Source: a virus
Strand: one strand, 5' to 3'
DNA: 25,070 nt
IMG/VR virus record: IMGVR_UViG_3300020438_003260
Coordinates: 1-25,070 of that record
Part shown: in pieces, positions 10,903-12,792 of the stretch
How the letters are laid out: every line of letters starts with the position of its first letter
How positions within the stretch are numbered: position 1 is the stretch's first letter
Translations under genes and position numbers: made by a program
Notes under the pieces: generated by a model
Told to the model about the DNA's origin: nothing
Databases searched by the model: none
What the model saw: the letters and a program-made list of their open reading frames with translations, nothing else

Positions 10903-11655
10903 TTACGAATTAAATAGTTCGTCAAATGCTTCAGAAGTATTTGATACTGTTTTAGCAGAAGCTAATTCTTTAGTAGATACTTGTGAATTAGAATCATCAG
11001 AATCAGTACTATCTGGATTCAACCAATCATTCAACACTCCTGTTAAATCATCATAGCTTAGTTCTTGGTAAATCTCACCAATTTCTTGTTGAGCCTTTAC
11101 CGCCTCCAAAACTTCAGGTTCGTCTGAGATTGCAGTTTGATTTGGCTTAACCCTAATATTAGTTTTTGGGAAACTAGCACCACTTTCTTCAGCAGTGATA
11201 AATTCCACAACAACATCACGACCATTTACTGGATCGGTAATGTCACCATAATCTGGGTCAGCAATAATGGAAAGTAGTTCTTGGTAAACTGTTTTACCAA
11301 AACCCCAAAACCGTACGCCTTGTCTTTCCTCACCACGAACCACTACTGGTGCAAAGGTTCTCATCTTTGCTTCCAATTTCTTGGCCAGCTGATAATCTTC
11401 CTTACTACCAGAACCTTTAAGTTTTTGTGAAAACTCCTCAATTGGGTCTGGACGACCATGTGAGATAGGCGATAAATAAGAACGATTATTTAAGTTATAA
11501 TGAAAAAACAACTCGATAAACGGGTTATCACGATTGAATTCATAAGGTACAATCCTAATTTGTGTTTTACCAGGTTGAGGTTTCCATAAACTTGATGTTC
11601 TGTTGTTTGTGGTTTGTAGTTGAGCGAGACGCTTTTTGATTGCGGATAAGTCCAT
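10903..11655 (-). CDS. Single-stranded DNA-binding protein, T4 gp32-like
   Basis: Coats single-stranded DNA at the fork and in recombination. 250 residues (T4 gp32 has 301): a basic N-terminal segment (IKKRLAQLQ, 5-13) where gp32 carries its cooperativity element, an aromatic-rich OB-fold-like core (about 22-175) with WKPQPGKTQIRIVPYEF and RFWGFGKTVYQELL, and an acidic Ser/Asp C-terminal tail (about 205-250) ending FDELFNS, the usual partner-recruiting tail. No cysteine occurs anywhere, so the zinc site of T4 gp32 is missing. The ATG has GGAG upstream. It lies directly upstream of uvsX and begins a new unit after a terminator. The call rests on core pattern, tail and context rather than a single motif. 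Confidence 0.85.
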   Translation of the reverse strand: MDLSAIKKRLAQLQTTNNRTSSLWKPQPGKTQIRIVPYEFNRDNPFIELFFHYNLNNRSYLSPISHGRPDPIEEFSQKLKGSGSKEDYQLAKKLEAKMRTFAPVVVRGEERQGVRFWGFGKTVYQELLSIIADPDYGDITDPVNGRDVVVEFITAEESGASFPKTNIRVKPNQTAISDEPEVLEAVKAQQEIGEIYQELSYDDLTGVLNDWLNPDSTDSDDSNSQVSTKELASAKTVSNTSEAFDELFNS

Positions 11656-11658
11656 TTT

Positions 11659-11745
11659 TCATTCTCCTATGTGTATTATTTATTATTTATTTTTTAATTG
11701 TTAATCAAGTATAACCTTGATACTATAATACATATCAACTTGATT
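11659..11745 (-). promoter_or_regulatory. gp32 upstream region: repeated ATCAAG half-sites, -10-like box, AU-rich leader
   Basis: Within 42 nt there are nested inverted repeats: AATCAAGT (11703-11710) with ACTTGATT (11738-11745), ATCAAG with CTTGAT (11704-11721, 6-nt loop), and TTGATA with TATCAA (11717-11738). A -10-like TATAGT (minus strand) lies at 11727-11722. Towards the gene follows about 45 nt of nearly pure A/T with repeated AATAAATAATA units up to the Shine-Dalgarno. This recalls the T4 gene 32 translational operator, a folded element followed by an unstructured AU-rich leader. Operator or promoter function is inference. Confidence 0.4.
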
Positions 11746-11776
11746 CATTAAAAACCATTTTATTTTGCTATTTTGC

Positions 11777-11841
11777 AAAAAAAAGCGACTCCGTTTTTTT
11801 AAGCATGGTAGTAGGTGGATACTAAAAATTGGAGCCGCTTT
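11777..11841 (-). terminator. Rho-independent-type terminator after the TonB_C gene
   Basis: Minus-strand RNA can pair AAAGCGGCTCC (11841-11831) with GGAGTCGCTTT (11792-11782), 11 bp with one G-U, followed by an 8-base U run (11784-11777). The 38-nt loop is long for a classical terminator. It lies between the TonB_C stop (11897) and the gp32 promoter region, exactly where one unit should end. A weaker AU-rich dyad (11851-11864) lies between it and the stop codon. Confidence 0.65.
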
Positions 11842-11896
11842 GAAATCTTCATATATTAATATATATAAAGAAGTTTTCTCAAACTGTAACTTTTTT

Positions 11897-12235
11897 TTAC
11901 TTGAATGTAATTGGCAATTTATATCTTACTCTCACTGGTACTCCGTTTTGGATTGGTGGTGAAAATTTCATTTGTCTGACTTTATCTAAGATAACTTCAT
12001 TGAATGATACATTAAAAGTGTCAACTATTTCAGGTTCTATAACTGTTCCATCTTTATCTATTATGAATTCCACCATTACATTTCCAGTCATATTGGTTTC
12101 TTTATATATGTTTTGTCTTACATCATAATAGTTAAGTTGAAATGGTTTTTTTACTTTGGGTTGGTGGCTCTCATTCGCAAATGAGTCTTGGGAGGCCAAC
12201 ACTCCCACTAGCATTAAACAAAAAAGTCGCTTCAT
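11897..12235 (-). CDS. Periplasmic TonB C-terminal-domain protein, signal peptide only
   Basis: 112 residues. MKRLFCLMLVGVLASQDSFA (1-20) is a good signal peptide with a probable signal-peptidase I site after SFA. Residues about 36-111 match the TonB C-terminal fold: GNVMVEFIIDKDGTVIEPEIVD (51-72), a helix with ILDKVRQMKFSPP (82-94), then NGVPVRVRYKLPITF (97-111). In canonical TonB this domain grips the TonB box of outer-membrane receptors, while a membrane anchor and a long proline-rich linker connect it to ExbB/ExbD. Here there is no linker, no lipobox and only the short signal segment, so the mature product should be a soluble periplasmic domain of about 92 residues, unable to transmit energy by itself. 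GGAG precedes the ATG. Terminators on both sides make it an independent unit inserted between replication and unknown genes. Decoy or adaptor roles are inference. Confidence 0.85.
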   Translation of the reverse strand: MKRLFCLMLVGVLASQDSFANESHQPKVKKPFQLNYYDVRQNIYKETNMTGNVMVEFIIDKDGTVIEPEIVDTFNVSFNEVILDKVRQMKFSPPIQNGVPVRVRYKLPITFK

Positions 12236-12265
12236 TTTTGTTCTCCGTTTGTGGTTTTATTAACT

Positions 12266-12320
12266 AACCGACCACTCGTGTGTTTTATCCTTATTACCAG
12301 TTGGCATATCCGAGTCGGTT
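12266..12320 (-). promoter_or_regulatory. Foldable leader of the TonB_C gene
   Basis: The 143-nt gap upstream of the TonB_C gene contains, in minus-strand RNA, AACCGACTCG (12320-12311) able to pair with CGAG (12278-12275) and TCGGTT (12271-12266), a 10-bp GC-rich stem with a 3-nt bulge and 32-nt loop, placed before the Shine-Dalgarno at 12246-12243. A TATAAT box (12330-12325) lies just upstream of the stem, but I see no good -35 partner. The stem is unusually GC-rich for this gap. A B12-box search by eye found only GCCAACTGG, with an extra base. Role unknown. Confidence 0.3.
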
Positions 12321-12346
12321 TCGCATTATAAATAGAAAACAAGAAT

Positions 12347-12375
12347 AAAAAAAAACTAACATTTTTGTTAGTTTT
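12347..12375 (-). terminator. Strong intrinsic terminator after the 137-residue gene
   Basis: AAAACTAAC (12352-12360) and GTTAGTTTT (12367-12375) form a perfect 9-bp stem with a 6-nt loop. On the minus strand the stem runs into 9 consecutive U (12355-12347). It begins 3 nt beyond the stop codon at 12379, ends the transcript carrying the two unrecognised genes, and isolates the TonB_C gene from upstream transcription. Confidence 0.75.
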
Positions 12376-12378
12376 CAA

Positions 12379-12792
12379 TTAATATTCAACTTCCCAATCA
12401 TTTACATTTATGATTTTATGAATTTTGGTTTTAATAACATTTAACCCTGAATCATTAGTTAATAACAATGAGTTTTGGTATTCACTCCAATCTACTTGAA
12501 ATGATTTATCCAACACACCACCATTTTTTGATCGTATAACTTCATTTAAGGCATTGATTGTATACAATGTATTTGTTTGTTTTTTTCTATGTAGTGAAAT
12601 GGTATCTATAATACCCTCTTGAAAATTTTCTATATACTCTACATTATAAGTACAGATTAACTGATTTGAATCTTCCTTATTGGAAAAGATATATACCTTA
12701 TCATACAATATTTCATTGCAAGTGATAATGATATTGACTATCTTATCTAATTGGTCTTTCTTTACGAAAGTGCAGAGTAGTTGAGTTTTCAT
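12379..12792 (-). CDS. Unrecognised conserved-looking phage protein, 137 residues
   Basis: No family recognised. The sequence looks like a compact alpha/beta domain: MKTQLLCTFVKKDQLDKIVNII at the start, then alternating strands (VYIFSNKED, QLICTYNVEY), a helix-rich middle with TLYTINALNEVIR (about 76-88) and a hydrophobic LLLTNDSGLNVIKTKIHKIINV near the end. There is no signal peptide or membrane segment, so it is probably cytoplasmic or virion-associated. Its ATG overlaps the stop of the 683-residue gene by one base (TAATG), indicating translational coupling, and a strong terminator follows at once. The pair may act together. Composition matches the phage. Confidence 0.75.
   Translation of the reverse strand: MKTQLLCTFVKKDQLDKIVNIIITCNEILYDKVYIFSNKEDSNQLICTYNVEYIENFQEGIIDTISLHRKKQTNTLYTINALNEVIRSKNGGVLDKSFQVDWSEYQNSLLLTNDSGLNVIKTKIHKIINVNDWEVEY

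Follow-up and report, generated by a model that had tools for sequence, protein, structure and literature searches.

A stand-alone gene for a secreted TonB C-terminal (TonB_C) domain is present in the viral DNA analysed here (25,070 nucleotides, hereafter the window) and in related phages. The gene (P0001; 11897..12235, minus strand) is a self-contained cistron that begins with an ATG at 12235, ends with a stop codon at 11897 and specifies a 112-residue protein, as indicated by its open reading frame, Pfam match, AlphaFold model and PDB match, family alignment and purifying selection. We tentatively favour the view, at somewhat less than even probability, that its product is a host-type TonB tip that binds TonB boxes without transferring force, and that it is one of several phage genes that interfere with the host envelope. 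The TonB_C domain, the idea of a dominant-negative TonB and the occurrence of solo TonB_C proteins in bacteria are already known; what is new is a phage family that is absent from the phage family libraries we searched and that is linked to a phage-borne pilin-like cassette with homologues in putative hosts.

A leader joined directly to a TonB_C domain

Residues 45–112 match the Pfam profile PF03544 (TonB_C) over positions 10–78 of 79 (E 3.7e-13; 50.2 bits against a gathering cut-off of 24.6), and the protein also matches NCBIfam TIGR01352 (E 3.1e-9). The N-terminus, MKRLFCLMLVGVLASQDSFA, has a brief basic segment, a run of hydrophobic residues and small ones within its first 20 positions, a pattern typical of a cleaved signal peptide. 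This signal-peptide-like leader comprises about residues 1–21 (12173..12235, minus strand), and residues 22–112 (11900..12172, minus strand) are the presumed mature periplasmic protein. An N-terminal membrane anchor and a proline-rich linker are absent, as just ~10 residues separate the presumed mature start from the point where conservation of the domain begins; the region upstream of the domain has 2 prolines per 20 residues in the window protein and 1–6 across the family. An earlier note, made from the letters of the window, had described a signal-peptide-like leader followed by TonB_C with no anchor, proline linker or lipobox, and the open reading frame, the Pfam match and a 35-member family all agree with that description, to which we add the placement on the minus strand.

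An AlphaFold model built with 35 family members had an overall pLDDT of 83.6, with low confidence in the leader and values of 85–98 for ten-residue blocks of the mature part, except for residues 41–50 (67). The predicted topology, a1-b1-b2-a2-b3 with b3 at residues 103–111, is that of the TonB_C fold. The best match among solved structures was the FoxA-bound TonB tip (6i97_D; Z 11.3, 86 residues, 1.9 A, over residues 23–112), and further matches included 1u07 (Z 9.6), BtuB-bound 2gsk_B (Z 9.4) and FusB (Z 9.4). Profile search and structure prediction of the protein alone, both proposed in the earlier note, have therefore each recovered TonB_C. The viral structure library returned no match at E <= 0.001, BFVD no clear relative and the defence database no match for the protein.

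Two other identities were considered and set aside. Residues 32–38 (FQLNYYD) fit the published D-box pattern, as is true of 9 of the 35 family members, and host solo proteins have an ordinary lead-in to helix 1 at the corresponding position; a D-box mimic that jams ExbD was judged unlikely because the pattern is not kept across the family. A lipoprotein was rejected, since there is no lipobox and the cysteine found at about position 6 in 25 of 35 members lies inside the hydrophobic core.

The gene lies between g137, which specifies a 137-residue protein (12379..12792, minus strand), and a gene for a T4-type single-stranded DNA-binding protein (SSB; 10903..11655, minus strand; PHROG E 5.2e-16). 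It has no exbB or exbD neighbours, and no ExbB or ExbD match was found among the scanned window genes. The leader region that separates g137 from the TonB_C gene (12236..12378, minus strand) contains a hairpin with a U-run at the g137 end, a TATAAT-like element and a CGGAG ribosome-binding site. It is highly conserved, its conservation in alignments with the two nearest relatives (L172 and L002) nearly equalling that of the gene itself. Evidence of a conserved RNA in this region was sought in Rfam, which gave no match, and in folding energy, which showed no excess. On the 3' side of the gene is a terminator-like hairpin with a U-run (approximately 11779..11841, minus strand; AAAGCGGCUCC...GGAGUCGCUUUUUUUU), which is kept in L172 and L002 and was missed by a pattern scanner because its loop is too long; the segment 11770–11890 folds far better than its shuffles (z -5.25). 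The mature part is under purifying selection (pairwise omega 0.09–0.41 in eleven close pairs), and the leader evolves faster than the mature part in most, though not all, close pairs of the window's sublineage, as expected for a signal peptide. Contamination with bacterial DNA was ruled out, because the gene is flanked by phage replication genes and structural-type genes and recurs in viral contigs with the same synteny.

A divergent phage family and its putative hosts

Scanning viral contigs with a nine-member alignment yielded 37 contigs, a count that is biased, as is the apparent invariance of QNG-P-V, by a scan pattern that fixes those residues. Conservation extends to Y105, L107–I109 and an N-terminal P-F-L, all of which lie outside the pattern. 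Besides the window protein we recovered 34 further phage-type homologues, and all 35 match TonB_C at E <= 0.01. Their alignment reveals a common architecture of leader, 10–25 residues, TonB_C and an end at or just after b3. The b3 strand with its LPI core is kept in every member, including at positions outside the search pattern, while its end varies (PIKIK in L194, L198 and L202; PIKVKK in L200). A lipobox, an anchor or a proline linker occurs in none of the 35, and fusion to a TonB N-terminus, which the earlier note had named as evidence against its view, occurs nowhere in the phage clade (0 of 35 homologues).

In a phylogenetic tree the phage proteins form one clade (support 92/93), and the ExbBD-linked TonBs of putative hosts form a separate one (100/98*), with the deep order of the tree unsure because few columns are available. 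Together with a DTFN signature particular to the phage family, this long separation suggests that the family has been diverging in phages for a long time. Like TonB of the ExbB-ExbD-TonB complex, the phage protein has a C-terminal TonB_C domain with the same fold (Z 9–11 to solved tips) and a presumed periplasmic location, but unlike TonB it lacks a membrane helix, a proline-rich linker and a consistently conserved D-box, and it falls outside the clade of host ExbBD-linked TonBs.

A survey of related phages found the same gene, in several genomic contexts, in 8 of 50 fragmentary viral records of the phage clade. In PHROGs the window protein was unmatched at E <= 0.01 and a single one of the 35 members had a weak match (0.0069); records of isolated phages held no clear relative. 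Four human-gut 'Bacteriophage sp.' records gave matches of 29–34% confined to the domain, and the sole full-length match in named bacterial genomes (L207, from TMED198) lies on a contig whose open reading frames suggest phage DNA. We found no report of a phage TonB tip in the open-access literature, a scope that excludes most subscription journals.

The window also encodes a TonB-dependent receptor (P0004; 3..1496, minus strand; Plug E 7.1e-14, CarbopepD_reg_2 E 5.1e-15), of which the first 498 residues are present before the contig ends. Plug was found in 44 of 50 related viral records, and the full-length protein, near-universal in the phage clade, has about 915–968 residues. Between the receptor and a ribonucleotide reductase gene is a glutamine-synthetase-like gene (1563–2555) whose product has only 330 residues (Gln-synt_C E 2.7e-15, Gln-synt_N E 7.1e-9). 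Genomes from the phylum of TMED198 encode homologues of the receptor with up to 73% identity (149 of 199 sampled genomes at E <= 1e-20). This makes that phylum, which is probably Marinimicrobia (SAR406), the likely host group. Several of these putative host genomes have, next to ExbD-type genes, a gene for a canonical TonB with membrane helix and proline-rich linker; the putative hosts also encode many receptors, such that a target for a decoy exists.

A variable cargo site and a pilin-like cassette

In the window and its near relatives the TonB_C gene occupies the interval between g137, the upstream border, and SSB, the downstream border (11656–12378 in the window). This interval is variable: among 34 SSB-seeded loci with at least 2.5 kb of upstream sequence, two hold TonB_C, many are empty and others contain unrelated genes or pilins. 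Its contents elsewhere include genes for a 553-residue protein (L017) and a 424-residue protein (L077).

Other phages have TonB_C at the end of a cluster of genes on one strand, after C9, one to three copies of C17, C6 and C2 (L314, L289, L301 and L302 are examples of the cassette). C9 is prepilin-like (GNSLAEFAVTT...), C17 is a type IV pilin (Pfam N_methyl, E 1.4e-7), C6 has, by its sequence, one membrane helix and a periplasmic domain, and C2 is a secreted protein, modelled with low confidence (pLDDT 64). In order to probe this linkage without bias, we seeded an independent scan with C9, which gave 50 loci, 29 of them with 4 kb of downstream sequence. TonB_C directly follows the cassette in 16 of the 29 and is absent in 13, as compared with a chance expectation of about 1–2% for TonB_C within 4 kb (from a density of 8 in about 2.2 Mb, 50 records), a figure that is rough because the loci are related. 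The order pilins-C6-C2-TonB_C is invariant, on one strand, at two genomic sites, with TonB_C typically no more than 130 bases from C2. One of these sites is the g137-SSB interval, where cassette and TonB_C occur together in L289, L301, L306 and L315. In L203 and L204 the order is g137-C9-C6-C2-TonB_C-SSB, and the window, which has TonB_C without pilins, looks like that locus minus the pilins, with the direction of change being either way. Neither C9 nor C2 had a match in records of isolated phages. In the putative host phylum C9 homologues were found in 17 and C2 homologues in 16 of 199 genomes, C17 homologues being present as well; C9 and C17 occur in tandem arrays on putative host chromosomes, and in two inspected genomes these arrays adjoin genes that appear to be of pilus or secretion type.

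These data raise the possibility, unlikely on balance but a serious rival to a decoy, that the TonB_C protein is a periplasmic accessory of the cassette, with the fold serving to grip a secretin, an outer-membrane protein or a product of the cassette itself, at the time when phage pilins are entering the host filament machine, extending it or poisoning it. The invariant order in 16 of 29 independently seeded loci argues for such a role, as does the finding that the three genomes with the host solo TonB_C proteins most like the phage family (G156, G246 and G202) are all among the 16 with C2 homologues. However, the window's sublineage retains TonB_C without the cassette, and the same is true in several other contexts (the cassette is missing from 14 of 23 TonB_C-seeded loci that have sufficient sequence upstream). 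Many copies of the cassette have no TonB_C, and the host solo genes that we inspected are situated away from pilin arrays.

Possible roles: decoy, retained host function or adaptor

A stand-alone secreted TonB_C protein is not a phage invention, since chromosomes of the putative host phylum encode proteins of about 112–165 residues with the same architecture, and do so in at least two conserved contexts. They include L258, L259, L260 and L265–L288, which belong to several groups; by eye, one (L284, L286, L288) adjoins a gene for a long two-component-type protein and another adjoins methyltransferase/PspC-like genes. Host solo proteins such as L258, L259 and L260 resemble the phage protein in having a signal-peptide-like leader directly followed by TonB_C and in their similar length, and some end in V-K/R-Y-x-LP as the phage family does. 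The phage copy may therefore do whatever these host proteins do, having been captured as a gene for outer-membrane housekeeping or signalling, possibly without TonB-box binding. We regard this second serious rival to the decoy as improbable, since the phage family is a single, long-separated clade with a DTFN signature. The host solo proteins are spread over several tree groups distinct from that clade, have SLGP/SGG-type turns where the phage family has DTFN and are found in other gene contexts. An adaptor that stabilises or gates the phage-encoded receptor, a role also suggested in the earlier note, is highly doubtful, for although the window also encodes the receptor and nearly all phages of the clade have it, most of those without TonB_C still have it too, the distance between the two genes is about 10 kb in the window and reaches about 71 kb elsewhere (G043), the linkage is to the pilin-like cassette, and a TonB_C domain without an anchor cannot energise a receptor.

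We return to the competitive decoy, for which the fold, the profile match and the presence of the gene in related phages, all checks proposed in the earlier note, speak in favour, while the host solo proteins offer another reason for such a protein to exist. We infer a periplasmic location, TonB-box binding and an effect on infection. The mature domain would use b3 to pair with the TonB boxes of TonB-dependent receptors in the outer membrane, both the host's and the phage's own, the window receptor being a possible target or partner; untied to the ExbB/ExbD motor, it would occupy receptors without pulling on them and so lower TonB-dependent traffic. The likely benefit would be exclusion of superinfecting phages or bacteriocins that rely on TonB-energised receptors, with TonB_C acting as one gene of an envelope-interference group that, in related phages, may include pilin-like decoys and a replacement receptor. 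According to its title, a 2001 study by Howard et al. (J Bacteriol 183:5885; cited in PMC9769762) reportedly found that the TonB periplasmic domain, made in vivo in E. coli, inhibits FecA and FhuA transport, which suggests that a soluble periplasmic domain can be inhibitory. In the complexes known so far, strand b3 of one TonB molecule pairs with the TonB box of a receptor (PMC7014051), and force from ExbBD acts through the N-terminal part of TonB (PMC10907165). By itself, therefore, a tip could grip a receptor but could not pull on it. There are precedents for phages that disable TonB-dependent receptors or type IV pili to exclude rivals: Cor targets FhuA, and proteins of Pf4 and other Pseudomonas phages target pili (PMC11436027). 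Taken together, these precedents make a competitive decoy the likeliest single reading. Counting against it are the presence of the gene in a minority of the phage clade, its several contexts and the variable b3 end of some members. We know of no TonB-dependent phage in the putative host phylum.

Cor and T5 Llp-type exclusion proteins, which act on FhuA and have folds different from TonB_C, resemble the phage protein in proposed outcome, a TonB-dependent receptor less used by other phages, but differ in site of action, as the phage TonB_C would act from the periplasmic side. Mar_Mega_1 is likewise a phage that carries part of a Ton system, in its case a receptor rather than a TonB tip; its authors interpreted the gene as one for nutrient uptake, and it provides a precedent for a phage-borne TonB-dependent receptor (PMC9723777).

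More speculatively, and with no great likelihood, one class of marine phages may carry an envelope-interference cassette that releases decoy subunits of host surface machines (type IV pilins, a TonB tip and a TonB-dependent receptor) into the infected cell; no viral protein that inhibits the Ton system from the periplasmic side is known so far, and the soluble tip would be the first. If the decoy acts as proposed, it would be a phage-made dominant-negative TonB, a simple shut-off of receptors exploited by many phages and bacteriocins, and it would offer a natural means of inhibiting TonB-dependent uptake. The link to the pilin-like cassette, in which three of four genes have host homologues, provides a testable gene set for the remodelling of cell surfaces by abundant uncultivated marine phages.
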